Shown here: positions 8,926-51,385 of the stretch, in pieces | Layout: every line of letters begins with the position of its first letter | How positions within the stretch are numbered: the first letter of the stretch is position 1 | NCBI GenBank assembly: GCA_023386955.1 | Contig: JAEWIS010000011.1 | Coordinates: 22,694 to 86,693, forward strand | Origin: Bacillota bacterium | GTDB lineage: Bacteria; Bacillota; Bacilli; Paenibacillales; NBRC-103111 | Reading direction: 5' to 3' | Length of the DNA stretch: 64,000 bases | Position numbers and translations under genes: made by a program | The notes under the pieces: model-generated | What the model was told of the DNA's origin: nothing | Databases searched by the model: none | Seen by the model: only the letters and a program-made list of their open reading frames with translations

Positions 8926-11409
8926 TCACGCTTGCTCTAGCTGCGCATCAGCCGCCTCCACCCGGAGGGAAAGCGGTCCGTGGCCGTGGGTGTACAGGGC
9001 GATATGCAGCCCCTCCTGCTCGGTAACGGTCAGGGGCCGCCCGTCTGCATAAACTCGGACAGGCCGGTCAAAGGCTATTTCCCCGCTGGTGCCCGGTGTG
9101 CCCGCCGCCTCCCAAAGGGTGTAGCCGTCATCCAGCGGCACCAACTCGCTGGTACAGTACACCAGCTCGCCGTAAGGCAAGCGCACCAGCGTTGGCATCA
9201 TACGCGCTGTAAGGGGGGCAATGTACAAAACGGACTGTTGGGGAAAGGTCAAGTATCCGCCCTTCCGCCTCAGCCGGATACGGTCACACCGCTCTGCCCC
9301 TGTTGTGTTGACAGCCGTCACCAGTTGGAACCCATCCTTGCTCCGAACCACGGTATGGTAGATGTCGTACTCCGCGTGGACTGCCCGGCCCTCCGCCAGC
9401 AGAGGCAGCAGCAGCAGCTTCAGCGACTCCACATTGTCCAATCCGGTAAACTGCGGGGCGAACCCCAGCACCAGCGCCTCTCCGCTGCCGAAGGGATGCC
9501 GGTATCCGACGGTTTCGCCTTCGTAGGTTATCAGGCAGCTGCCCGCGCCGGGAAGCTCCAGCGTGTTCAGCTGGTCCGCCGGGATACCGTCCAGCTCCTT
9601 CATCCGCATGAAGCGGCGGCCGATGTCCCCGGCTGTTAGCCCGAAGCGGGGAATCTCCCGGCGGAGCCGGAAGCCTGTTGCCTGTGCAAGCAGGGGCAGG
9701 TCAAGGCCATCCGGTGTTTGAACGGGAACCTCCGGATAAAAGACCACCTTGCCCCCTTTTTCCCCATGCCGCATCACGTACTCCATCGCCTCTTTCGACA
9801 AGGTGCCGTCGTTGGGGATAATCAGGAGCTCCGGAAATCCCGGCTCCCGGTTGGGCACATCCAGATCCATCAGTGCAAACTGGACGTTGCTCATGGTGAG
9901 CATCTTGGTGAGAGCCTCGATGCTGTCCACCACCTGCTTGGAACGGTTGGCCGACAGGGTGGAGGCGCCGGAGGAGTGATCCTCGAACACGGACAGCTCA
10001 CTGCCCGCATACTGCGCCAGCAGGTAGAGCTCCTGGGACAGGCCGATCACCGCGTCATAGGCCTTGGCCGTTCCGGCCAGCTCCCGCTCCCACCCGGCGG
10101 CAAACCGGTTGAACTCTCCCGTCATCCGGTAGACGGTATTCTCCTCTCCGGAGGCGGATACGGGATCGGCGAACAGATCATAGGCGTCCGTCACATAGGT
10201 GCGGCTGAAGCCCTTTTCCCCCGAGGCAAAAATAAAATAATTGTACCCGTCCATCCCGTGCCCCAGCAACGTGCGCAGATGCACCGGATAATTCAGATGG
10301 TTGGGCACCTGGTCCAGGGTCATCCAGCCTGCTCCCACCTCGATGGCGATGGCGGGACGGTCCGGGGCCTGCATCTTCAGCGCCTCCAGCCTGAAGACGA
10401 TTTTGGGAAGTCCGTTGGCATCCATATGGTACCCGTACTTGAGATAGGAGTGGCAGGTGGTGAGAATCTCCTCCCCCTGCTCCTTCATGTACGCGGAGAA
10501 AGCGGCATGATTGCCCGGGCCGCGGAAAAAGCCGTTGATGGGCTCATTGTAGGTGTTGGGTACCTGAAGGCCATATTTGCGGCTCCAACGGGCCAGCAGG
10601 GCGGCATACCGGTAGACATATTCCGTACGGAACCGCATCCAGTCCAGATAAAGCCGTTTCTTGCCCTGCGCATCCGTTCCCTGCAGCTTGGGTTGGATGG
10701 CGGCCAGGCCGGCTGCTTTCGTTCCGTATCGCCGGTTCAGCTCCTCCAGGCTGCCGAACCGCTCCAGCAGGCTATGCTGGAACAGCCCTGGCGTGTCTCC
10801 GTCACCCAATACCTTTGGGTCATACAAGGAACCCTCCGGATCAAGTCCGGTAAACAGCAGATTCATTTCGTTATCCGGCTGATGGAGAATGATGGGGCCG
10901 CCGTTTTCGATGGAAAACCGCTTGAGCAGCGGAATCACCTGAGCATACCAGCGCTCCGCCAGCTCCAGGAAACGATCCCCCAGCTGCTGCGGCACATGAT
11001 TGCCCTGCCCTACCCAAAAGGCGGGACTGCCGTCCGGCTTGGCGCTGACCGTCTCGGGATATTGCCGGTACATCCAGTGCGGATGTCCCCCGTCTACATA
11101 TTCGGCATTGATGAAGGGGCCGGGTTTGGCTATGACGTACAGGCCCATGGAGGAGGCCAATTCCAGAAAACCCACCACATCCCGCTCGGCAAGGGTTTCT
11201 CCGGTAAAGTCGAACCTCCCCTCCTCGGGCTCATGAAAATCCCAGGGGATGTACGTGGCGATGGTGTTCAAATGATTGTCCCGGGCTTTCTCCAGCATGG
11301 TCCTCCAGCGGCTCTTGTAAATCCGGAAATAGTGGATCTCTCCGGAACGCAGCAAAACCTCCTTGCCGTCAATCTGGATGGTCCGTCCTTCGATGCGGAT
11401 ATGTCCCAT
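8926..11409 (-). CDS. GH35-like beta-galactosidase, cytoplasmic
   Basis: 827-residue enzyme expected to remove terminal galactose from imported oligosaccharides. No signal peptide is present. Residues 1-120 carry the GH35 opening (SGEIHYFRI, LNTIATYIPWDFHEPEEGRFDF, YVIAKPGPFINAEY). The probable acid/base Glu is at about residue 178 in HQPDNEMN, where most family members read QIENEYG. A nucleophile candidate is the Glu in IAIEVGAGW at about 355. The C-terminal half would be the beta-sandwich domains. GGGGGAG lies 7 nt before the ATG. The divergence at both active-site motifs suggests a subgroup with altered specificity. The 55-bp gap to the AraC regulator gene suggests co-transcription. Confidence 0.85.
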   Translation of the reverse strand: MGHIRIEGRTIQIDGKEVLLRSGEIHYFRIYKSRWRTMLEKARDNHLNTIATYIPWDFHEPEEGRFDFTGETLAERDVVGFLELASSMGLYVIAKPGPFINAEYVDGGHPHWMYRQYPETVSAKPDGSPAFWVGQGNHVPQQLGDRFLELAERWYAQVIPLLKRFSIENGGPIILHQPDNEMNLLFTGLDPEGSLYDPKVLGDGDTPGLFQHSLLERFGSLEELNRRYGTKAAGLAAIQPKLQGTDAQGKKRLYLDWMRFRTEYVYRYAALLARWSRKYGLQVPNTYNEPINGFFRGPGNHAAFSAYMKEQGEEILTTCHSYLKYGYHMDANGLPKIVFRLEALKMQAPDRPAIAIEVGAGWMTLDQVPNHLNYPVHLRTLLGHGMDGYNYFIFASGEKGFSRTYVTDAYDLFADPVSASGEENTVYRMTGEFNRFAAGWERELAGTAKAYDAVIGLSQELYLLAQYAGSELSVFEDHSSGASTLSANRSKQVVDSIEALTKMLTMSNVQFALMDLDVPNREPGFPELLIIPNDGTLSKEAMEYVMRHGEKGGKVVFYPEVPVQTPDGLDLPLLAQATGFRLRREIPRFGLTAGDIGRRFMRMKELDGIPADQLNTLELPGAGSCLITYEGETVGYRHPFGSGEALVLGFAPQFTGLDNVESLKLLLLPLLAEGRAVHAEYDIYHTVVRSKDGFQLVTAVNTTGAERCDRIRLRRKGGYLTFPQQSVLYIAPLTARMMPTLVRLPYGELVYCTSELVPLDDGYTLWEAAGTPGTSGEIAFDRPVRVYADGRPLTVTEQEGLHIALYTHGHGPLSLRVEAADAQLEQA

Positions 11410-32809: not shown

Positions 32810-33889
32810 TTATTCCGCTACATAATCAATGGCTGTATCAATGCCGATCATGTTCAGCTTGGCGTCCCAGGTGACGCCGATATTAAAGGCCTTGGCAATG
32901 TCCCGGAGTTTGAAGTAGTTGTTGCCGTTAATGTTGTAGGCGCCAAGCTCCAGCTTTTTACCATTGAGCATCAATGCGGAGCTGCTGGGAACAGCCTGTT
33001 GGTTTCCGGTCACGCCGGAGGCTTCCAGTTCGCCGCCAACCGCGGTATAAGCGGCTTCTGCTTTCAGGCTGATCGCATTGCTGGCTGCATCAAAACCCAC
33101 CTCGAATTGTTTGCCGGAGCCATTGATTGCTTTAGCCAAATCACGGAGCTTGAAGTAGTTGTTGCCGTCGATGTTATACGCCTCAAAAGCAACCTCCTTG
33201 CCGTTGACCATTACCTTGGAGGCGGTGGGAACCGCGGCGGCCGGCTTCAGCTCCGGTTTGTTCGCAGGTTCCTGCACAGGTTCTTTAGCAGGTTCTTTAG
33301 CAGGCTCTTTAGCAGGTTCCTTCGCAGGCTCTTGGGCCGGTTCCTTCGTTGGCTCCGCTGCCGGCTGCCCGCCTGTTTCATCCGCCCAGGTCAGCTGTAC
33401 AAAAAAGCTCTTTTTGTCGGCTCCTGGTTTGGCGGCATAAGCGATTTCATAAACGCCGTTCTGCTCCAGAACGGCAAAGTTGCCGGCGGACATAAAGTAT
33501 TCACCGGATTCCGGAAGCTTAGTCGTATATTTCGGGAAATCATCGTCTGTTTTGACGACATAATACTTCTCCATGAATTCCAACTCTTGGCCTTTGCCCA
33601 ATTCAAGCTTCCCGTCCTTCAGCACAGCCTCCGGATAAAAGGTGATGCCCTGGTAACCATAATCGTCATATCCGTCGAAGAAAATGGAGCTCGACGAGTT
33701 AATGTGAATGAGATCTGCAGTTCCATTAACTTTTTCCTTACCGACCACAGAGTGAATCGTAATCTCCTGATTATCGGAAACGCTTACAACCGTGCTCTCG
33801 TCCTCTGCAAAAGCAGGCACCACAGCAAATACTGACATCACTACCGCTACCAACAGGGACAACGACATTCGTTTGGGGCTAAATCTCAT
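32810..33889 (-). CDS. Secreted stalk-domain (copper-amine-oxidase-N-like) protein
   Basis: 359-residue exported protein of unknown function. A signal peptide occupies residues 1-28 (ends AFAED). An N-terminal beta-rich domain follows (30-165), then a low-complexity linker of about ten Glu-Pro-Ala-Lys-type units (about 178-210) that probably spans the wall. Two copies of the stalk/PF07833-like unit (NNYFKLRDLAKA at about 240 and NNYFKLRDIAKA at about 330) form the C-terminus. Such proteins are abundant in Paenibacillus and are not oxidases. GGAGG precedes the ATG by 7 nt. It is a single-gene unit with its own terminator. Confidence 0.82.
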   Translation of the reverse strand: MRFSPKRMSLSLLVAVVMSVFAVVPAFAEDESTVVSVSDNQEITIHSVVGKEKVNGTADLIHINSSSSIFFDGYDDYGYQGITFYPEAVLKDGKLELGKGQELEFMEKYYVVKTDDDFPKYTTKLPESGEYFMSAGNFAVLEQNGVYEIAYAAKPGADKKSFFVQLTWADETGGQPAAEPTKEPAQEPAKEPAKEPAKEPAKEPVQEPANKPELKPAAAVPTASKVMVNGKEVAFEAYNIDGNNYFKLRDLAKAINGSGKQFEVGFDAASNAISLKAEAAYTAVGGELEASGVTGNQQAVPSSSALMLNGKKLELGAYNINGNNYFKLRDIAKAFNIGVTWDAKLNMIGIDTAIDYVAE

Positions 33890-34044
33890 TTCTCATCCTC
33901 CATACGGTTAAATTTTCCAATCCTTTATTCCCTTCCATTATATAAGAAAAATGTTAACTGATCTATCTATAAAATTCCATTTTGTCTAATCTTCCAACAT
34001 ATTTCTACATTTCATCCAACGGAATTCGCCATCTGCAAACAAAA

Positions 34045-34070
34045 GCAAAAGAGGCGCCTGAATAGGCGCC
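34045..34070 (-). terminator. Rho-independent terminator of the MFS transporter gene
   Basis: On the minus strand GGCGCC, a six-base loop and GGCGCC lead into TCTTTTGCTTTTG. The T tract is short but it sits 22 bp past the stop. Confidence 0.7.
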
Positions 34071-34092
34071 CCAAATATGCGTAATGCCCAGG

Positions 34093-35355
34093 TCAAGCTT
34101 TCGGCTTTGGCCAGAAAAACCCCCGGAACAGCACACCCGCCACACCAATGGCGGCAATCACCAGCCCCAGGATGAAGAAGATGCGGGCTGGTCCTGCCAT
34201 CTGTACCATCCCTCCACCAAGCAGAGGAGCTGCAATCATGACGAACCCCAAAACGGTGCTTTGGATACCGAATACCCGTCCGGTCATATGCGGCGGCGTT
34301 TCCTTCTGCAGGCAATAATGGAAGGTGACCATAAACATGCCGTTCCCAAGTCCCAATACAAACCCCAATGCTAGTACAGGCAGGATAGAGCTGCCCACCG
34401 GAAGCAAACCCAGTCCTCCGATTGACGATCCGATGAGCATATATCCCCCGCCCAGCTTCCAGCCATAACCGCCCGGACTATTCCGCTTGCTCAGAATGGT
34501 AATGATCAGAACTGCGCCTGCACCCGCAGCCGCCACCATCCAGCCCAGCATAGCCTCCTGGTCCGGGGCGATCATCCGAAACAGACTGGTAAATTGAAAA
34601 TCCACCAATTGAATGGCCATCGATCCTGCCAAGCCGAACAGCATCGTAAACAACAGCAGCCTGCTGCGGAAAATAAAGCTCCACCCTTCCTTCCACATGG
34701 CTTTCAGGGTTTGTTTTTCCCCAGTGGGGTCATCTTCCTTAGCCCCGGTGTTGGCCTGAGCAGCCTCCGCATTCCGGACAGTAAACAAAAGACCGTAGGA
34801 GCCGATCCGGAAGCAGGCACAGAGCAGAATGCACCATTGAGGGGACAAAAAGGACAACGCAAGTCCGCCAAGGAGCGGACCGGCCAGCTTTGAGCCCTGA
34901 TTGACGATTCCGTTCAGGGAGGTGGCCTGCAGCAGCTGGTCCTCCCTGACCAGACGGCGGGTGAGAGCCTGCTGCGCCGGCACATTCAAGGTAGAGACTG
35001 CCGCACGAAGAGCGATTACCGGAAGCAGCCACGCCATATTCGGCGCCAGCAGGATGAGCAGGGTCAGCACCGCCGTTGTCAAATCACAAATCCGCATCAG
35101 CTTCAGCTTGTTCAATTTGTCTGCAGCCACACCCGCGGCAGAGCCCAGCAGAATGCCGGGCAGGGCGATGGCTACGGGAATCAGAGCCAGCATCAGCGGG
35201 CTTACCTGCCACCGGTACCCGACCAGTACCTGAATGGCCAATACATCGAACCAATCGCCGAAGGCCGCCGCCGCGTAGGCGCTGTAAACCCGCACATACA
35301 CCTTGTTGCGCAGCAGGCTTGCGGCCGGTTTCTCTTGCTGTAAAACCAATGACAT
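34093..35355 (-). CDS. MFS transporter (probable drug/solute exporter)
   Basis: 420-residue membrane protein with about 12 predicted hydrophobic segments and the MFS_3-type pattern (AAFGDWFDVLAIQVLVGY near the start, AADKLNKLKLMRICD loop after segment 2, ARLNVPAQQALTRR-like loop). Relatives include macrolide-type and multidrug exporters, but no substrate can be assigned. It follows the winged-helix regulator gene by about 105 bp on the same strand, suggesting that the regulator controls it. The start is ATG 35355 with GGAGAAG about 8 nt upstream. Confidence 0.85.
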   Translation of the reverse strand: MSLVLQQEKPAASLLRNKVYVRVYSAYAAAAFGDWFDVLAIQVLVGYRWQVSPLMLALIPVAIALPGILLGSAAGVAADKLNKLKLMRICDLTTAVLTLLILLAPNMAWLLPVIALRAAVSTLNVPAQQALTRRLVREDQLLQATSLNGIVNQGSKLAGPLLGGLALSFLSPQWCILLCACFRIGSYGLLFTVRNAEAAQANTGAKEDDPTGEKQTLKAMWKEGWSFIFRSRLLLFTMLFGLAGSMAIQLVDFQFTSLFRMIAPDQEAMLGWMVAAAGAGAVLIITILSKRNSPGGYGWKLGGGYMLIGSSIGGLGLLPVGSSILPVLALGFVLGLGNGMFMVTFHYCLQKETPPHMTGRVFGIQSTVLGFVMIAAPLLGGGMVQMAGPARIFFILGLVIAAIGVAGVLFRGFFWPKPKA

Positions 35356-35460
35356 CGTCTTCTCCTCCGCATCCCAATAAAATCACTTTCCCCAATGAAT
35401 GAGGCTATGATCTTATCCTAGCGTTGGAATGTCAGAGGATTATCAGAGGTGCTGTGGCCA

Positions 35461-36627
35461 TTACCGCAAAGCTTGCTGCATAGACGAATCCAGGGTCTGA
35501 AGCAGCTCATTCCCCATAAATCGCTCAAAAAAAGCATCATACATGCTTTTGTATTTGAAATAGAGTTTTTCGTCCATCCCAAATCTCTCCACATAATGGA
35601 CAATCCGGTGCAAAGCATGAAGCTGCAGCGGGACGAATCCGCTTTTCTCCAAAATAGCCAGCCCTTCATCCAAATAACGTTCGGCATCCTGATGCTTGCG
35701 CTGCCTCAGCTTCCACAATCCCGTAGCAATCCGGAAGCCCCCCATTTCCCGCAAATAAGGCTTTTCAACCAATATGGAGGTTTCCAATCGGGCTGCCAGC
35801 TGTTCAATCACAGCATCCCCGCTCTCTGCTACGATATGGGCAAACATTAGCGTAATAATCGCATATGGAAGAAAGGTGGAATAGTCCGGGTGTTCGGAAA
35901 TGAATTGCTCCGTCAGCCTAAGCCGTTCCATAGCCTTCTCTATGTATCCGTCCAAAATGTATAAATCCACTATATTGAGAATTTCAAGCTCCGTGTGATG
36001 GTTTACAGGAAGGAGCCCCCGTTCAAGCACCGTCTCGCAGTATGCCATTCTTTGGCCCGAATCGCCGGTATACATATAGAAAAGAAGCAGGAAATAGAAG
36101 CGCGACTTCCAGGGATACTCCTCCGTCCGGAGCAGCCATTCCACATCCCCCTGGACAAAATGGAGATAAACCGCATAAAACGGGTCCAGCTCATAACCCA
36201 ATACATCCTGCTGTCTGGCCAGGATCATCATGGAGCGGCCTTGGCCGTAGGTATGATACTTGCCGAATACATTCCGCATCGCCTGGTTCAAAGCCGGATC
36301 ACGGGCGGCAGGAACCGTATCGTGCAAGCCTGTTTGTTCCTTCAAAACCAGACTGTAGCCCTGGCCCCGGACCGTCCGGATTTCCAGGCCGTGCAGCACG
36401 GACAGCTTCTTCCGAAGCCGGTACACATGGTCATCCACCGTCCGTTCCACGGGATACTCCATGGGCCATACCTGATCCAACAGCTGCTCCCGGCTATAGG
36501 CGCGCCCCTGATGCGAATAGAGAAACGCCAGCAGCGCATATTCCTTGGGAAGCAGCCGGATGGTCAGGCCCTCCGCCTCTACCTGGTACTGGACTTCATC
36601 AAAGCTCAAATGCATAATTGCACCCAA
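35461..36627 (-). CDS. Winged-helix regulator with C-terminal helical repeat region
   Basis: 388-residue protein. Residues about 10-100 form an OmpR/PhoB-type winged helix (LLPKEYALLAFLYSHQGRAY; ERTVDDHVYRLRKKL; IRTVRGQGYSLV). There is no receiver domain before it. The remaining 280 residues are predominantly helical with TPR-like character (YLDEGLAILEKSGF) and may sense a ligand or partner, as in SARP-like regulators. The start chosen is TTG 36627, 6 nt after GAGG; ATG at 36615 lacks a site. It sits just upstream of an MFS transporter gene, so regulation of export in response to a small molecule is inferred. Confidence 0.75.
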   Translation of the reverse strand: MGAIMHLSFDEVQYQVEAEGLTIRLLPKEYALLAFLYSHQGRAYSREQLLDQVWPMEYPVERTVDDHVYRLRKKLSVLHGLEIRTVRGQGYSLVLKEQTGLHDTVPAARDPALNQAMRNVFGKYHTYGQGRSMMILARQQDVLGYELDPFYAVYLHFVQGDVEWLLRTEEYPWKSRFYFLLLFYMYTGDSGQRMAYCETVLERGLLPVNHHTELEILNIVDLYILDGYIEKAMERLRLTEQFISEHPDYSTFLPYAIITLMFAHIVAESGDAVIEQLAARLETSILVEKPYLREMGGFRIATGLWKLRQRKHQDAERYLDEGLAILEKSGFVPLQLHALHRIVHYVERFGMDEKLYFKYKSMYDAFFERFMGNELLQTLDSSMQQALR

Positions 36628-36734
36628 ATTGCTGCCTCATAGTCGTTATTCTAGCTCCTTCGCGGCTATCAAAATGTCCTGGATTTCCTCCAATCGATTT
36701 CACAGCTACGAATAGAAGGTTTGATCCATACTCC

Positions 36735-45707: not shown

Positions 45708-46502
45708 TTAGCTGCTCGCGCTTTTGTAATGCCGGAGTCCAAAGCTCCAGAACCATAGTGCAATACAGGTAAAGCAAACCACTGTCAGCAGCCCGTACAT
45801 GATTCCGGCTGCTCCCAGCTTCCCGGCAATAAATTGGGTAGGCAGGGTTGACATGATCCCATACGGAAGCACGAAGTAAAACAACACCTTGAATGCTCCC
45901 TTGAAAAGGGTTCCCGGTACCTTCATGCATAGCTCCAGCAACTCTTCCAGCCTTGTGATGTTCCCCGCAGAGATAACAAAAAAGGGAATGGTCCGCAGAA
46001 TTAGCCCCACGTCATACCAGAGAACCGTTATCAGCAGCACCAGCAGCACATACCCCCCCATATTCCAAACCGTTATATCCACTGTTGTCTGTGACAGGCC
46101 GTAGCCGATAATCCCCATGCTCAGGAATAGTAAGGGAACGGAGCCGGGATTAATGTTCTCAAAGGTAAGCCGCAGCAAGGGGTTCATAGGTTTGGTCAAA
46201 TAATGATCCAGATTGCCGTTGGCTATTTTGGCGGGAATACCGTTTATTCCGAAGAAGAACAGGACCATATTGAGCGCATTGATCAGAGAAAAGGTTCCGA
46301 TAAAAATGTACATTTCCCCTTGCGTCCAGCCTCCTATGGAATCGACTTGCGAGTATATGGAAGAAAAGACCAGAAGCTGCACGAGAAACAGGCTGCCGTC
46401 AACAAAGAACGCTCCGAAAAAAGACAGCCGAAATACCATCATGTGGGATAATTTCATTTTGAAAAGAATCAGGATGATACGCAATTGTTTGCCCAGACTC
46501 AT
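45708..46502 (-). CDS. ABC-2 type permease subunit (ABC2_membrane_6-like)
   Basis: 264-residue membrane protein with six predicted hydrophobic segments. The opening IILILFKMKLSHMMVFRLSF, then GWTQGEMYIFIGTFSLINAL and the loop GNLDHYLTKPMNPLLRL, are typical of the PF06182 permeases that work as heteromeric exporters. The start ATG overlaps the previous permease's stop (ATGA). It is the last gene of the MutS2-like/ABC operon. Exported substrate is unknown; drug, peptide or lipid export is plausible for this family. Confidence 0.85.
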   Translation of the reverse strand: MSLGKQLRIILILFKMKLSHMMVFRLSFFGAFFVDGSLFLVQLLVFSSIYSQVDSIGGWTQGEMYIFIGTFSLINALNMVLFFFGINGIPAKIANGNLDHYLTKPMNPLLRLTFENINPGSVPLLFLSMGIIGYGLSQTTVDITVWNMGGYVLLVLLITVLWYDVGLILRTIPFFVISAGNITRLEELLELCMKVPGTLFKGAFKVLFYFVLPYGIMSTLPTQFIAGKLGAAGIMYGLLTVVCFTCIALWFWSFGLRHYKSASS

Positions 46503-47293
46503 ATCCCCACCCCATCATACCTGATGCGCAGCCGGTTATAGGCCATCCGGTTAATCGGAATAAACAGCAGCACCCACACCGACAGCGAGATAAGCCCAGC
46601 CGCGATTTCTTCGTGATTCCTGCCTACAAGCAGCATAGAGGGGAGATAGGTCACGTAATAAAAGGGGAACAAGCGCATCCCCTCTTGTATACCCGGCGGC
46701 AGTAAGCTCAAAGGCATCATGGTCCCGGTTATAAAAGCGACCATCATTCCTTTAATCATCAGAAACAAGCCGATATCCTGAAATTTGAAGGTGAGTATGC
46801 CAAGCAAAAAGTTCAGCTGAATCATAAATAGCAGGCCCAGAACAAGCATGATTACAGCGGAGACAATTACGGCAGGGTCCGCCGTCAGGACAAGTCTGAT
46901 CCGGAATATTACTGTCCAAACCAGGGCAGCTGCCAGATTAAACAACATATAGAAAGCAGCCGCCCCCGCAGTTCGCGCGATAAAATTCCCCAATACTTGA
47001 GATGGAATTACCATATACTTGGAAAACGACCCGTCACGGATGCGAGCGGAGATTTCATCGCTGACCCCGTTTGACATATCCAGCTGGGACAGAAAAGAGC
47101 TGATGATGTAGTAGCTTAGCATCGTATTGTAGGTAAACCCGGCAACCTCATTTTTTTCCCCAAAAATAGCCCCCCACAGAATGTAAGCAAACAGGATCTT
47201 GGTGATGGTAAACAGCATATGAAAAGCAATATCAAACCGCCAAACCAGTTGGGCTTTGAAGACAATTTTGGTAGTTTCGATGTATTTCCTCAT
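46499..47293 (-). CDS. ABC-2 type permease subunit (ABC2_membrane_6-like)
   Basis: 264-residue membrane protein, partner of the following permease, with about six hydrophobic segments and the family loop DGSFSKYMVIPSQVLGNFIA. The ATG at 47293 overlaps the ATPase stop as ATGA and has GGAAGG 8 nt upstream; a TTG at 47299 is less likely. The two permeases differ in sequence, so the exporter is probably a heterodimer driven by the ATPase encoded just upstream. Confidence 0.86.
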   Translation of the reverse strand: MRKYIETTKIVFKAQLVWRFDIAFHMLFTITKILFAYILWGAIFGEKNEVAGFTYNTMLSYYIISSFLSQLDMSNGVSDEISARIRDGSFSKYMVIPSQVLGNFIARTAGAAAFYMLFNLAAALVWTVIFRIRLVLTADPAVIVSAVIMLVLGLLFMIQLNFLLGILTFKFQDIGLFLMIKGMMVAFITGTMMPLSLLPPGIQEGMRLFPFYYVTYLPSMLLVGRNHEEIAAGLISLSVWVLLFIPINRMAYNRLRIRYDGVGI

Positions 47294-48273
47294 ATACAAG
47301 GCCTTCCGCGGTCATTATAGATGCGTTCTACCACATTTCCGATATCCTCTTCCTCTACGGTTACATCACGGATGCTGTAGCGATTCATCAATTCCTTCAG
47401 GATGAACTGTGCCCGTTCTTTTCTGACCATAAACGAAAGCATAAACGGATTTTGCTCCATGATGTCCACCTCCTCTTTTAGTGCAACCTCCGTCTCCTCC
47501 TCAAAGGCCACACTGATTTTTTTATGGGTTTGGTACTTTTCAAAAAGGGTCGTTGTATCGCCGTCATACAGCTTCGTACCCGCATTGATGACTACGCATC
47601 TTCTGCACAAGCTCAAGATGTCCTCCATGTAATGAGAGGTCAGCAGAACTGTCGTGCCTTTTTCCTCATTAACCTCTTTCAGAAACCTGCGGATTTGCTT
47701 CTGGGCAACCGCATCCAGCCCGATCGTTGGTTCATCCAGAAACAGGACCTTCGGATTATGAAGCAGGGCGGCTATTAGCTCCATTTTCATTCGCTCACCC
47801 AGAGACAGGGTTCTTACTTGCACATTCAGATAGGCTTCCACACCGAACAGCTCCACAAAATAACTTAAATTTTTGCGGTATTCCTGCTCCGGAATACTGT
47901 ATAGCTCCTTGAACAGCAGAAATGTATCAGCCGCGGACAGCTCGAAGAACAGCTGGCTTTTTTGGCCCATGACCACGGCATATTGGCGCTTCAGCTCATT
48001 CTCCAGCTTGTTTGGGTAGAAGCCCAGCACGGACAATTCACCTGATGTTTTGGCAATAATACCGGTCAGCATTTTGATCAGGGTTGTTTTTCCGGCGCCA
48101 TTGGGACCGATCAATCCTACAAACTCTCCTTGTTCTACTTCAAGATTGAAGTCGGATACTGCGGTTTTTTCAATATACCGGCGATGGAAAAGGCTTTTTA
48201 CGCTTCCAAGCAAACCTTCCTCCTTTTCAAAGCGGCGGTAGGATTTCGTGAGATGGGCAGTTTGAATGATCAT
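47290..48273 (-). CDS. ABC transporter ATPase for the ABC-2 exporter
   Basis: 327-residue ATPase. Walker A GPNGAGKTT is near residue 57, the Q loop GQKSQLFFEL follows, the signature reads LSLGERMKMELIAALLHNP, Walker B is VLFLDEPTIGLD, and the H loop is LLTSHYMEDI. The N-terminus has an insert (FEKEEGLLGSVKSLFHRRY) typical of the ABC-2 subfamily linked to PF06182 permeases. The C-terminal 90 residues form a regulatory extension. GGAGG precedes the ATG, which overlaps the MutS2-like stop by 4 bp, so it is translationally coupled to that gene. Confidence 0.93.
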   Translation of the reverse strand: MIIQTAHLTKSYRRFEKEEGLLGSVKSLFHRRYIEKTAVSDFNLEVEQGEFVGLIGPNGAGKTTLIKMLTGIIAKTSGELSVLGFYPNKLENELKRQYAVVMGQKSQLFFELSAADTFLLFKELYSIPEQEYRKNLSYFVELFGVEAYLNVQVRTLSLGERMKMELIAALLHNPKVLFLDEPTIGLDAVAQKQIRRFLKEVNEEKGTTVLLTSHYMEDILSLCRRCVVINAGTKLYDGDTTTLFEKYQTHKKISVAFEEETEVALKEEVDIMEQNPFMLSFMVRKERAQFILKELMNRYSIRDVTVEEEDIGNVVERIYNDRGRPCI

Positions 48274-50210
48274 GAATCCTGATCCTCCTTATACGTGACA
48301 GTCAATCCCGGCTGATGCCCTTTTTCCATCCGGTGCCTTGCTTTACGGTTCTCCACCGTGTCGAACACAATGGAAAAATCGTAGTCCTCGGGATACAGCT
48401 TGGTTGCCGGAACAAGCAGCTTTACCCTCTTGTGTCTGATGAACTGCTTCTTTCCCTTGATTTGCACGCCGAGCATTCCGTTTTCATCCGAACGTTTAAA
48501 AATAATCCCGACTTCCTTTTGCGGATAAACCGTTACACTGTCCCCGATCTGAAACTTCTGCCCGCCATGCTGCACCGTTTTGGGGGGTGCATCCTTCTTC
48601 AGCCGGGGAGCCGCCGGCCTTACGTGCTTCGCATTCTTAGTGGTGTCCGTGTCAAAATGATGTGCTTCCTCCGGCAGAGACGTTCCATTTGGCTTGTAGG
48701 CTTCCGCATACGCTCGCTTCAGCATATGGGGCGGAAAGCCAAGACGCTCCGCGATGTGCAAGGCGCAGCTTTCGCCGGCTTCTCCGATGCTCAGGCTGTA
48801 CAGCGGCTTCAAGGTATCCCTGTCGAATTCCATTCTGGCGTTGATCAGCCCTTTGGATTGCATGGCAAATTCCTTGACCTGAGGATAGTGGGTCGTAGCT
48901 ACAAACAGGCAGTTCTTGCGCCTGAGCTCATCCAGAATGGCGATAGCCAGCCCCATTCCCTCGGCAGGATCGGTGCCGGAGCCCAATTCGTCAAGAAGCA
49001 CCAACGTTTCATCTGTTGTCTGCTCCAGAATTTGGATGATGCCTGTCAAGTGGGCAGAAAAAGTGGACAGGTTCTCCGCGATGCTTTGACCATCCCCAAT
49101 ATCGCATAAAACAGCATTGTTCATGCAAAAGGAGGTTCCTTCAGCCGCGGGAACATGCAAACCGCTTTGAGCCATAAGCGACAATAACCCTACCGTTTTC
49201 AGGGCAACGGTTTTGCCGCCGGTGTTGGGCCCGGTCACGACGATTCCTTGATATTCGCCGCCTAACTGAAAATCCAGGGGTATGCAGGATTCCCGCTTCA
49301 GCAGCGGATGGCGGCCCTGCCGGATGATGATCCGCCGGTCGGTTGTCAGCGGCACGGGAATCGCCTGCATCTGCGCGGATAGCTTGGCTTTGGCAAAAAT
49401 GAAATCCAGGGTTTCCATGTGCTCCCTGTTCTGCTCGATTTCTGAAATTTGCTCCTCAACCAGCGCAGTGAGGGCACAGAGGATCTTTCTGATTTCTTCC
49501 TCCTCCTCCAGCTGCAAAACGGTTATTTCATCCTGCAGCCTCCTGACGGATGCAGGCTCAATGAAGTATGTGCTGCCCGTGCCCGAGGCTTCGATAACCG
49601 TTCCATTCACCTGATTTTTGTATTCCTTCCTCACCGGAAGCACAAACCTGCCTGAACGGGTGGTGACGTATCCGTCGGCGAACCAGGCTTTATTGCTGCG
49701 GAGAATATCGGCTAGCTTGGTTTTTACGGCTGCGGCGGCATTCTCCAGCTTTCGGCGGACTTGATGCAGGGCCGGGGACGCACTGCTGTCAACGATGCCA
49801 TTGCGGATGGAGCGTTCAATCTCCTCTTGGAGTCCGTTCAATTCATGGAGCGAACCCCCGTAGAAGGCGATATCCACGTTCAGGAACTCCGACTTTCTCA
49901 GATAGCCCTTCATCCGTTTACATGAGCTCAAAAACTGCGAGACGTTTACTAGCTGTTCAGGAAAAAGCATTGCTCCCTGGCGTACCGTGCTTAACACCGG
50001 GTCAAGCTCCTTCATCAGCGCAAGGGGAGGATTGCCGACAGCGTCCAGCATTTTCCTCGCTTCCGTTGTTTCGTGCATCTGGTTTCTGCATTGGCTTTCG
50101 TTTAAGGACGGCTGCAGCGCCAGCAGCTTCTCTCTGGCCCCTTCCGACATGGCCAATTCGGCAAGACGTGCAAGTACCGTATGAAACTCCAGTGTATAAT
50201 TCTGATTCAT
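48270..50210 (-). CDS. MutS2-like ATPase with KOW-like segment, lacking the Smr domain
   Basis: 646-residue member of the MutS2 lineage. It has the lever/clamp-type helices (residues 1-300), Walker A GPNTGGKT near 327, the DGQSIAENLSTFSAHL switch, Walker B LVLLDELGSGTDPAEG near 402 and the ATTHYPQVKEFA block. A segment at about 550-598 (FQIGDSVTVYPQKEVGIIF, then VQIKGKKQFI) resembles the KOW domain of MutS2. Canonical MutS2 is about 785 residues and ends in an Smr nuclease-like domain; here the tail is only about 48 residues (FDTVENRKARHRMEKGH) with no Smr signature. B. subtilis MutS2 senses collided ribosomes, so this protein may act on ribosomes rather than DNA; that is inference. GGGAGG precedes the ATG. 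It is the first gene of an ABC export operon behind a long leader. Confidence 0.85.
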   Translation of the reverse strand: MNQNYTLEFHTVLARLAELAMSEGAREKLLALQPSLNESQCRNQMHETTEARKMLDAVGNPPLALMKELDPVLSTVRQGAMLFPEQLVNVSQFLSSCKRMKGYLRKSEFLNVDIAFYGGSLHELNGLQEEIERSIRNGIVDSSASPALHQVRRKLENAAAAVKTKLADILRSNKAWFADGYVTTRSGRFVLPVRKEYKNQVNGTVIEASGTGSTYFIEPASVRRLQDEITVLQLEEEEEIRKILCALTALVEEQISEIEQNREHMETLDFIFAKAKLSAQMQAIPVPLTTDRRIIIRQGRHPLLKRESCIPLDFQLGGEYQGIVVTGPNTGGKTVALKTVGLLSLMAQSGLHVPAAEGTSFCMNNAVLCDIGDGQSIAENLSTFSAHLTGIIQILEQTTDETLVLLDELGSGTDPAEGMGLAIAILDELRRKNCLFVATTHYPQVKEFAMQSKGLINARMEFDRDTLKPLYSLSIGEAGESCALHIAERLGFPPHMLKRAYAEAYKPNGTSLPEEAHHFDTDTTKNAKHVRPAAPRLKKDAPPKTVQHGGQKFQIGDSVTVYPQKEVGIIFKRSDENGMLGVQIKGKKQFIRHKRVKLLVPATKLYPEDYDFSIVFDTVENRKARHRMEKGHQPGLTVTYKEDQDS

Positions 50211-50600
50211 TGAACAAACCTCCCTTGGATGTTGAGACGCAAAAAAATCCGCACGAGAGGCTGCCCCGGCTCCCAGATCAGATCTGAAAGCAGGCAGAAT
50301 ACTCCTGCTGGCGCATCAACCAGGCATACCACCGGTAGGCGGTTTGAGGTTGGGAGATGTAACAATTTGGAGAAATACCAAAAAGAGCGCAACGGAAAAA
50401 GCCCATCGCACTCCGCAAAATCCCGGAAAAAACCACATTCCGGTCAATATGCTGTATAACTCAAATGGTTATCACGGAGTATTCTGTAAGGCGTCATTTC
50501 AAAAACGCAGCAAGCCGTACGCTTGAGCGTTCTTGGAAAGGCAGACTGAAACAAAGCAGGCGCTATCCTGCTTCTCCCCAGGCAAGCCTCTCTCAACTAT
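50211..50600 (-). promoter_or_regulatory. Long leader RNA with attenuator-like pairings before the MutS2-like gene
   Basis: About 390 nt lie between the leader peptide and the MutS2-like start. On the minus strand a local hairpin is formed at 50554-50573 (AAGCAGG/CCTGCTT) and another at 50423-50443 (CCGGAA/TTCCGG). GAGAGGCTTGCC at 50581-50592 is complementary to GGCAGCCTCTC at 50255-50265, which is followed after a few bases by seven T (50241-50247). Competing pairings of this sort are typical of ribosome-controlled attenuators. The structure assignment is inferred by eye. Confidence 0.55.
50380..50413 (-). terminator. Terminator-like hairpin inside the leader
   Basis: On the minus strand GAGTGCGA and TTGCGCTC pair over 8 positions (two wobble pairs), loop 13 nt, then TTTTTGG. 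It lies about 170 bp before the MutS2-like start, so it would stop transcription before the operon unless countered. Confidence 0.55.
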
Positions 50601-50636
50601 TCAGTTGAAAATCACCATTACAGAAGATACCGACAT
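50601..50636 (-). CDS. Candidate 11-residue leader peptide MSVSSVMVIFN
   Basis: ATG at 50636 is preceded by AAGGA about 9 nt upstream and about 27 nt after the predicted transcription start. The frame runs 11 codons to TGA at 50601-50603. A hairpin CAACTGAATAGTTG (50594-50607) overlaps the last codons and the stop, so a stalled ribosome would change RNA folding. The peptide resembles, in size and hydrophobic C-terminal part, the leaders that induce erm and ABC-F resistance genes. No homologue is recognised by name. Function is inferred from position and structure. Confidence 0.55.
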   Translation of the reverse strand: MSVSSVMVIFN

Positions 50637-50669
50637 GAAAACCATCCTTTCAAACTGTATTTGATCCTC

Positions 50670-50698
50670 ATCATATAGGAGAGCCTTGGAAAAGTCAA
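50670..50698 (-). promoter_or_regulatory. Strong sigma-A-type promoter of the MutS2-like/ABC operon
   Basis: Minus-strand TTGACT (50698-50693), a spacer of exactly 17 nt and TATGAT (50675-50670). It lies between the maf-like stop and the leader peptide, with the predicted start near 50663. It is the best-formed promoter I found in the window, consistent with constitutive initiation controlled by attenuation. Confidence 0.8.
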
Positions 50699-50718: not shown

Positions 50719-51351
50719 TCAAAACGGGCTGATGCCCCATTTTCCCAGCATTTGATATAGCCGGTTCACCGGCAGCCCCATTACGCTGAAGAAATCCCCT
50801 GCAATTTTCTCAATAAACAACGCGCCCATTCCTTGCACACCGTATGCCCCGGCCTTGTCCATCGGCTCGCCAGTACGGATATACGACCAAATTTCCTCTT
50901 CAGTCATCGGGCTGAAGGTGACTTGGCTGACTGTATGACTTACAGCCGGAGGGTTATCCTTCAAACCGCCGCCGGGTAGACAAGCTACGCCGGTGTACAC
51001 CTCATGCCTGCGCCCCTGGAGGCTGGAGAGCATCCGGAATGCATCCTCCTCATCAACGGGTTTGCCCAATACCTTGCCGTCCACGACTACAATGGTGTCG
51101 GAGCCCACAATCACCCAGGACTCTGGCGCAGGCTCCACCCCCAACCCATCCGCAGCAAGGCTTTCTTCTGTCGCCCTTGCCTTGCGCAGGGACAGCTCCT
51201 CCACAATTTTGGCAGGCTCCCAATCCTCCGGCACGGATTCATCCGCATGGCTTGCCCGCACGATCACCGGGAGCTGCAAAAGCCCGATCAATTCCTGTCT
51301 TCTTGGCGAGGAGGATGCCAACACCAGCGCCAAACCGTTATGTTTTGCCAC
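50719..51351 (-). CDS. maf: Maf-family nucleoside triphosphate pyrophosphatase
   Basis: 210-residue cytoplasmic house-cleaning enzyme that hydrolyses dTTP/UTP or modified nucleotides. Visible motifs: LALVLASSSPRRQELI at the start, DESVPEDWEP, VGSDTIVVVDGKVLGKPVDEEDA, and YTGVACL then IAGDFFSVMGLPVNRLYQML at the end. I chose GTG 51351 because AGGAG lies 8 nt upstream; GTG 51360 would sit on that site. DUF4321 lies 34 bp upstream on the same strand. The order SPOR protein-(amidase)-DUF4321-maf matches the spoIIB-maf region of Bacillus relatives. Confidence 0.92.
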   Translation of the reverse strand: MAKHNGLALVLASSSPRRQELIGLLQLPVIVRASHADESVPEDWEPAKIVEELSLRKARATEESLAADGLGVEPAPESWVIVGSDTIVVVDGKVLGKPVDEEDAFRMLSSLQGRRHEVYTGVACLPGGGLKDNPPAVSHTVSQVTFSPMTEEEIWSYIRTGEPMDKAGAYGVQGMGALFIEKIAGDFFSVMGLPVNRLYQMLGKWGISPF

Positions 51352-51385
51352 TTTACCCACTCCTGTCTTCTGTCTTTGTTATGAA

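Follow-up and report, generated by a model that had tools for sequence, protein, structure and literature searches.

A leader-preceded, Smr-less MutS2 paralogue of Bacillota, sometimes paired with an ABC exporter, as a candidate ribosome rescue factor

Introduction

In Bacillus subtilis, MutS2 binds collided ribosomes through its KOW and SMR domains and uses its ATPase to split those that have stalled; cells that have lost it become more sensitive to chloramphenicol, tetracycline and erythromycin, a Walker B mutant is sensitive as well, and KOW or SMR mutants show a modest erythromycin sensitivity only (PMC10897456). Here we analyse an operon in a 64,000-nucleotide stretch of a Bacillota genome of the Paenibacillales (assembly GCA_023386955.1, contig JAEWIS010000011.1, positions 22,694 to 86,693; the whole stretch is called the window), in which a MutS2-like protein without the Smr domain is encoded behind a leader peptide and ahead of an ATP-binding cassette (ABC) exporter. 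The window protein shares the lever/clamp, the ATPase and the KOW with B. subtilis MutS2 (which we take to be the protein also named RqcU), but differs from it in the missing Smr, in a shorter linker, in a YDFS tail and in being a paralogue, apparently leader-controlled, that exists besides canonical MutS2.

Several described systems resemble this locus in part. HflXr (lmo0762 of Listeria), a second copy of a splitting factor controlled by a leader open reading frame (ORF), confers protection against lincomycin and erythromycin (PMC6310831); like the first gene of our operon it is a duplicate beside a housekeeping copy and has a leader ORF, and its transcription attenuation has a putative counterpart in the window. 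It differs in being an HflX GTPase with an RLR leader motif, whereas the window protein is a MutS-family ATPase; no exporter is described with HflXr in the accessible text of that paper, and its resistance is experimental whereas the window operon is known from sequence. Genes of the antibiotic resistance (ARE) ABC-F class, such as lmrC, vgaA, msrD, vmlR and vgaL, are often under ribosome-mediated attenuation (PMC12421871) and likewise have a leader ORF and a terminator before a ribosome-acting ATPase, but that ATPase is of another family and acts by drug displacement, whereas splitting is what we would expect of the Smr-less MutS2. The uORFC-6-1 motif upstream of hflX in Bacillales (PMC8632094) also combines a structured leader, a conserved peptide and a ribosome-splitting gene; its peptide, however, is a conserved Arg-Leu-Arg, and mutS is not mentioned in the main text of that paper. 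The exporter part of the operon resembles PF06182 exporters with a DrrA-like ATPase, of which the viologen exporter is presumably an example, in having one ATPase and two PF06182 permeases, although the window ATPase falls under the cut-off of the DrrA model (188 versus 312).

Results

The product of the first gene of the operon is recognised by the MutS2 model TIGR01069 over residues 6-502 (581 bits, cut-off 400), and its ATPase carries the Walker A motif GPNTGGKT and the Walker B motif LLDE. Profile-profile alignment (hhalign) to nine canonical MutS2 proteins covers the lever/clamp, the ATPase and the KOW and ends at the KOW, with residues 550-600 aligned to the canonical KOW and five strands at 558-600 in the AlphaFold model. 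An Smr domain was not found, as Pfam gives MutS_V alone and the alignment to the nine canonical proteins stops before Smr; after the KOW the protein ends in a family-specific tail of about 45 residues. A preliminary description of the operon, made by a model from the DNA letters, had held that the protein keeps the ATPase and a KOW-like segment, lacks Smr and ends about 140 residues short of canonical MutS2, which we find as well. The 139 residues by which it falls short of the canonical form (646 versus 785) reflect the loss of Smr together with a shorter ATPase-KOW linker, seen as a long gap in the profile alignment, while the tail has been added. The structural comparison with ribosome-bound MutS2 that it had proposed came out in favour of the assignment, the structures nearest to the AlphaFold model (mean predicted local distance difference test score 75.7) being MutS2, among them the ribosome-bound B. 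subtilis protein 7qv3, which a sequence comparison also picked out and whose chains are 35-37% identical to the window protein.

An alignment of 26 relatives shows Walker motifs with little or no variation and an almost invariant tail, YPxDYDFSIxFDTVENRKARH. The Smr-less MutS2 is therefore a defined Bacillota family rather than a truncated gene. A protein search scored at least 7995 relatives, short and full-length forms together. Smr-less matches (E 1e-130 or better) occurred in 169 of 392 genomes from the order to which Paenibacillus luteus belongs and, among the matches listed, extended past query residue 630. All 70 Smr-less loci that we collected carry the Smr-less form, 68 by the tail pattern and two (L031 and L136) by a variant tail judged by eye. 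One canonical full-length and one Smr-less MutS2 were present in each of eight genomes, which had been chosen for carrying the Smr-less protein and do not include the window's own genome; in these eight the Smr-less form is thus a second copy beside a housekeeping splitting factor.

It is conceivable that such a protein acts off the ribosome, either on DNA or as an enzyme-reactivating ATPase, a role that the NCBIfam model KamC suggests for one MutS2-like family. The loss of Smr removes the domain that binds collided ribosomes, and the KamC model NF052383 scores 201 bits (E 3.3e-59). That score lies under the model's cut-off of 300, however, whereas TIGR01069 is well over its own; the KOW is kept, and the anatomy of the leader peptide described below points to translation. 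We therefore regard a role away from the ribosome as very improbable.

A leader ORF ending in V/I/L-[VILFN]-N, after which our rule allows no more than one residue, was found before 37 of 65 Smr-less genes, before none of 41 canonical mutS2 genes and before one of 322 other genes, the last being control genes of the same loci matched for upstream space (at least 200 nucleotides) and the canonical genes being unmatched in this respect. The 65 upstream regions include that of the window and were 68 before near-copies were removed; since the leader rule was written after 22 upstream regions had been viewed, the count is not a blind one. Strong terminators were counted as well (37/65 Smr-less, 0/41 canonical, 24/322 other), and an ORF with a 9-of-9 downstream complement occurred at 21 of the Smr-less genes and at none of the canonical or other genes; 1300 mononucleotide shuffles of the 65 regions gave 21 such ORFs and 2 terminators. 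The leaders come in two styles. In Bacillaceae and Paenibacillaceae they are mainly M-x-x-x-V-L-N (MSGVVLN, MLGVVLN, MSEVVLN, MSVNVLN), and in Clostridia they are window-like, M-S-x-x-S-V-[KM]-V-[IV]-[FN]-N (MSVLSVKVINN, MSASSVKVIFN, MSEVSVKVVFN), a style whose position and hydrophobic core we take to resemble the ErmC leader class. The constant pair is the leader and the Smr-less MutS2. Upstream of three loci (L034, L134, L138) we noted tandem terminators, one of the type CCGTGCT-loop-AGCACGG and a second near the start codon.

The leader could also be sought independently of the protein, with the DNA pattern GTTCTTAACTAR-N68-98-GTTRAGAAC. This pattern hit 68 of 198 Paenibacillus-order genomes, in a search that overlaps genomes viewed earlier, and 53 of 199 genomes of the order of Bacillus marasmi; the reversed pattern gave no row in the tables of either order (198 and 199 genomes). 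Among 60 fetched loci, 53 precede a MutS2 gene (30/30 in the Bacillus order, 23/30 in the Paenibacillus order). The pattern loci hold part of the gene and were scored against seven Smr-less and nine canonical references: together with 20 hand-picked loci, 69 of 80 fit the Smr-less form, none the canonical form, and 11 are without MutS2. In each of the 30 Bacillus-order loci, a nearly blind set of which one locus (in genome G005) had been seen beforehand, the Smr-less score was at least 1.5 times the canonical score. A stringent window-type pattern was found in one of 291 Clostridia genomes, at an already known locus, the pattern being too strict.

The pattern loci without MutS2 show what else the leader accompanies. 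Of the remaining seven among the 60, five carry a BpsA_C protein (PF01861) and two are L157 and L163; the 20 hand-picked loci comprise 16 Smr-less genes, three BpsA-like genes and one pair of a GNAT acetyltransferase and a protein-kinase-like gene. A leader ending in VLN-stop thus precedes a BpsA_C-like protein in 8 of the 80 loci, five assigned by PF01861 (L158, L159, L171, L175, L180) and three (L214, L215, L216) by 58-84% identity to the protein of L171. By eye, these proteins have a winged-helix-like start, a DPPYT motif and a zinc-ribbon-like end. At L217 (2100-3812) the leader MKVVVLN precedes the GNAT/kinase-like pair, with Pkinase just under its cut-off, and the same genome has a VLN-type leader before an Smr-less MutS2 (L209). 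At L157 a reverse-transcriptase-like ORF, by eye of the group II intron type, lies between leader and gene, with the Smr-less gene about 2 kb further, and at L163 the leader adjoins part of an IS1182-like transposase scoring just below cut-off. The leader therefore marks a small regulon dominated by Smr-less MutS2.

This regulon bears on the main rival to a drug-directed system, namely that what the leader detects is a state of the cell, such as its polyamine level, its efficiency of termination, or a stress of amino-acid supply or temperature, with Smr-less MutS2 as the rescue factor for that state. In leaders of the Bacillus/Paenibacillus style the final V-L-N-stop hardly varies, which would allow a cellular signal to be read at termination, and the same leader stands before the BpsA_C-like proteins, 20 of the 80 loci behind that count being hand-picked. 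The branched polyamines made by BpsA help to keep ribosomes stable in thermophiles (PMC12979288); for the Paenibacillus protein, BpsA activity is putative. Against this stand the related leaders at exporter loci, the leader before the GNAT/kinase-like pair, and its absence before the 41 canonical mutS2 genes. On balance we consider this explanation rather unlikely, if a serious one.

The operon of the window consists of four minus-strand ORFs that share stop and start as ATGA at all three junctions (Table 1); the overlap into permease 1 requires the ATG at 47293, against the TTG at 47299 picked by ORF listing. One ABC ATPase and two PF06182 permeases, all assigned by Pfam, make up a heteromeric exporter. 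Both the four-gene operon and the leader peptide ahead of it, as given in the preliminary description, are confirmed, the former by the junctions and the Pfam families of all four products, the latter by an ORF running from ATG 50636 to TGA 50601 that is followed by two terminator-like hairpins.

Table 1. Features of the operon and its leader in the window
Feature	Position	Strand	Remarks
Promoter-like site TTGACT-17-TATGAT	50670..50698	-	Consensus scan, 10/12 positions; directly precedes the leader ORF
Leader ORF MSVSSVMVIFN-stop	50601..50636	-	11 codons; Shine-Dalgarno-like GAAAGGATGG in front; contains strand 1 (50631-50621)
Strand 2, CAGAATACTCC	50476..50486	-	Alternative pairing partners: leader ORF, strand 3
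Terminator 1	50384..50414	-	13 pairs, then T run
Strand 3, GGAGTATTCTG	50295..50305	-	Perfect 11-nucleotide complement of strand 2; base of terminator 2
Terminator 2	50238..50305	-	Fold; core at 50291-50269; T7 tract lies in 50250-50238; directly ahead of the Shine-Dalgarno of the mutS2-like gene
Smr-less MutS2-like ATPase gene	48270..50210	-	646 aa; lever/clamp, ATPase, KOW, conserved YDFS tail
ABC exporter ATPase gene	47290..48273	-	327 aa; PF00005 (ABC_tran)
ABC-2 permease 1 gene	46499..47293	-	PF06182 (ABC2_membrane_6); ATG start by ATGA overlap
ABC-2 permease 2 gene	45708..46502	-	264 aa; PF06182 (ABC2_membrane_6)

The 455-nucleotide leader folds with an energy of -180.6 kcal/mol (z -7.5). 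In the free fold the leader ORF pairs with strand 2, and the computed probability of the pairing between strands 2 and 3 is 0.00; blocking the ORF brings it to 0.99. Strand 2 and the 5' arm of terminator 1 pair in the fold only before the 3' arm is made. A short ORF with a Shine-Dalgarno sequence and an intrinsic terminator before the first structural gene are both present, and the layout would fit the anatomy of a ribosome-mediated attenuator, a type of leader compatible with induction by translation inhibitors. In a close relative (locus L120), the segment from leader ORF to terminator 1 is 94.5% identical to that of the window, compared with 90.5% for the mutS2-like coding sequence; identity is 88.4% between terminator 1 and the T tract and 82.0% over 50760-50700; strands 2 and 3 are unchanged (strand 2 at 11/11 positions), and the leader peptide reads MLVLSVMVIFN. 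Rfam gave no leader family match in the window, and nine loci gave just four tRNAs. A pure, translation-free riboswitch is less likely, as the peptide ends agree between loci. Covariation is uninformative as proof of the pairing of strands 1 and 2, because the rule by which leaders were selected fixes both strands; RNAalifold reported 9 pairs, one with a change on both sides, in 52 leader sequences (56 found, four left out).

The exporter is a far less constant partner than the leader. An ABC gene of at least 55% identity lies within 4 kb of the Smr-less gene in 4 of the 70 loci (L009, L088, L089, L147), of which L088 and L089 had been found via the exporter; 11 of the 70 have less than 3 kb of flank on one side. 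Gene order is as in the window at L147, and the exporter comes first in the other three. A search with the exporter in the family of Lachnospiraceae bacterium A4 found it in 4 of 250 genomes, giving five loci: the Smr-less gene lies directly behind it in three (L009/L084, L088, L089), the roughly 8 kb behind the exporter at L087 contain no mutS2, and L086 runs into the end of its contig. Across 245 Paenibacillus-family genomes, no exporter at E 1e-95 was among the best 9 candidates per listed genome. The five exporter-linked rows do not cluster in the protein tree, and their nearest rows are not known to carry the exporter: L120 is without it, and L016, whose upstream side is unseen, is nearest to L089. 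These placements, which alone were used since the group test compared exporter-linked rows with canonical rows only, suggest that the exporter may have been gained or lost repeatedly. At L120 the MutS2-like protein is 92% identical to that of the window and the gene and leader are kept, about the first 30 nucleotides of the ABC gene remain (10879-10910), and the rest of the exporter is absent at the locus; the best ABC match in that genome is 41% identical. Past the ABC remnant, the L120 sequence resembles positions 32813-36635 of the window at 75% identity. At L019 (11983-14590), a different, convergent exporter lies beside the Smr-less MutS2 (ABC 41% identical, permease 23%).

Conservation of the quartet in other genomes, which the preliminary description had put forward as a check, is accordingly borne out as a recurrence, in the window's order or with the exporter first, and fails as a rule, the exporter being rare and lost at L120; the quartet as a conserved unit is rejected on the same count. 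The exporter might then be an accidental neighbour with an unrelated substrate, as its presence near so few Smr-less genes and its loss from L120, where mutS2 was retained, would allow. The quartet nevertheless recurs at scattered places of the tree and in two gene orders, so the four-gene arrangement is more than chance, though rare. Moreover, exporter loci have leaders of their own: L086 (MLIVSVMTMNN), L087 (MLIVSVMTKDN) and L089 (MLVVSVMTKNN), three loci from two genomes, share the TCTGTAATG / CCTTACAGA pairing with the window leader and have a strong terminator, GTGGTTTCAGTC...GGCAGAAACCAC plus a T run, ahead of the exporter, and the exporter leaders of L009 and L088 are MLNLIVMEKIAK and MLSVSVNESAVTK. 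The 500 nucleotides ahead of the gene at L147 showed no leader ORF of this type. Because related leaders occur on exporter loci, including one without mutS2 (L087), the exporter and the Smr-less MutS2 are apparently linked through similar control, beyond neighbourhood, and we hold mere accident to be improbable.

The flanks of the operon look unrelated to the quartet, with maf (50719-51360) upstream and genes for a sugar-binding protein, a histidine kinase and an AraC-type response regulator downstream. At five Paenibacillus-order loci (L122, L123, L124, L126, L129) the gene after Smr-less MutS2 resembles by eye what is presumably sigK, and at others neighbouring genes resemble what we take to be lepA or prfC.

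Discussion

The best reading of these results, in our analysis, is that a ribosome-splitting factor has been duplicated to give the Smr-less MutS2, a copy induced by translation stress and in some genomes accompanied by an exporter, and that the operon of the window is probably a translation-stress-inducible module for ribosome protection and rescue. By the same analysis, we read the first gene of the operon as being to MutS2 what HflXr is to HflX. A ribosome would stall on the leader ORF, most likely through an inhibitor of the peptidyl transferase or the exit tunnel, and would thereby free strand 2, so that the terminators open and transcription reaches the Smr-less MutS2 gene. The protein would dock via its KOW, and its ATPase would split or clear drug-stalled ribosomes; without Smr, it may depend less on collided disomes than canonical MutS2 does. 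The exporter, where present, would be made from the same transcript and remove the inhibitor.

A number of observations weigh against this picture. Blocking the ORF leaves terminator 1 at a probability of 0.99, and the core of terminator 2 keeps 0.96-0.97 whether the ORF is free or blocked; since the terminators persist in the fold, their opening would have to be kinetic or confined to the outer stem. At the exporter loci, the expected antiterminator pairs with the ORF blocked amount to 0.5 (L086), 2.6 (L087) and 0.0 (L089). The consensus scans are not enriched over shuffles in the leader region (four promoter-like sites against a shuffle mean of 6.0, and seven terminator-like sites against 8.0, terminator 1 being the longest), and the individual sites therefore count only by their position and, for terminator 1, also by its length. 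By our rule, 28 of the 65 Smr-less loci have no V/I/L-[VILFN]-N leader; of these, three (L009, L088, L089) have the exporter in front and one (L126) a reverse-transcriptase-like ORF, and many leader-negative loci, often of Lachnospiraceae, show other ML[IV]V-type ORFs. To these points belong also the pairing of the exporter with so few Smr-less genes, the canonical control unmatched for upstream space, and the presence of the leader before the BpsA-like protein and the GNAT/kinase-like pair, which fits general translation stress equally well.

A wider proposal, which we put forward tentatively and with less confidence than the reading of the operon itself, is that Smr-less MutS2 proteins dismantling drug-stalled ribosomes could constitute a widespread, unrecognised class of resistance in Bacillota. 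They would be switched on by a V-L-N-stop or S-V-M/K-V-I leader that also governs the exporter, the BpsA-like enzyme and the acetyltransferase/kinase pair, as parts of a translation-stress regulon whose signal is sensed when translation of the leader terminates or shortly before.

In the titles and abstract openings that our literature search covered, with subscription papers mostly outside its reach, we found no description of an Smr-less MutS2 family or of its leader; a survey that counted mutS2 over 15,259 genomes mentions no Smr-less copies in its accessible text (PMC11633108). HflXr is the sole example that we found, in literature accessible in part, of ribosome splitting as drug resistance. 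If our reading is true, a second, unrelated splitting ATPase has been duplicated under a leader peptide, which would make ribosome splitting a general resistance strategy. The natural Smr-less version would offer a direct test of the roles of Smr and KOW in MutS2, and there would be a new leader peptide, whose near-invariant V-L-N-stop end invites a search for its inducer. The system may thus be an unrecognised route of resistance to ribosome-blocking compounds.

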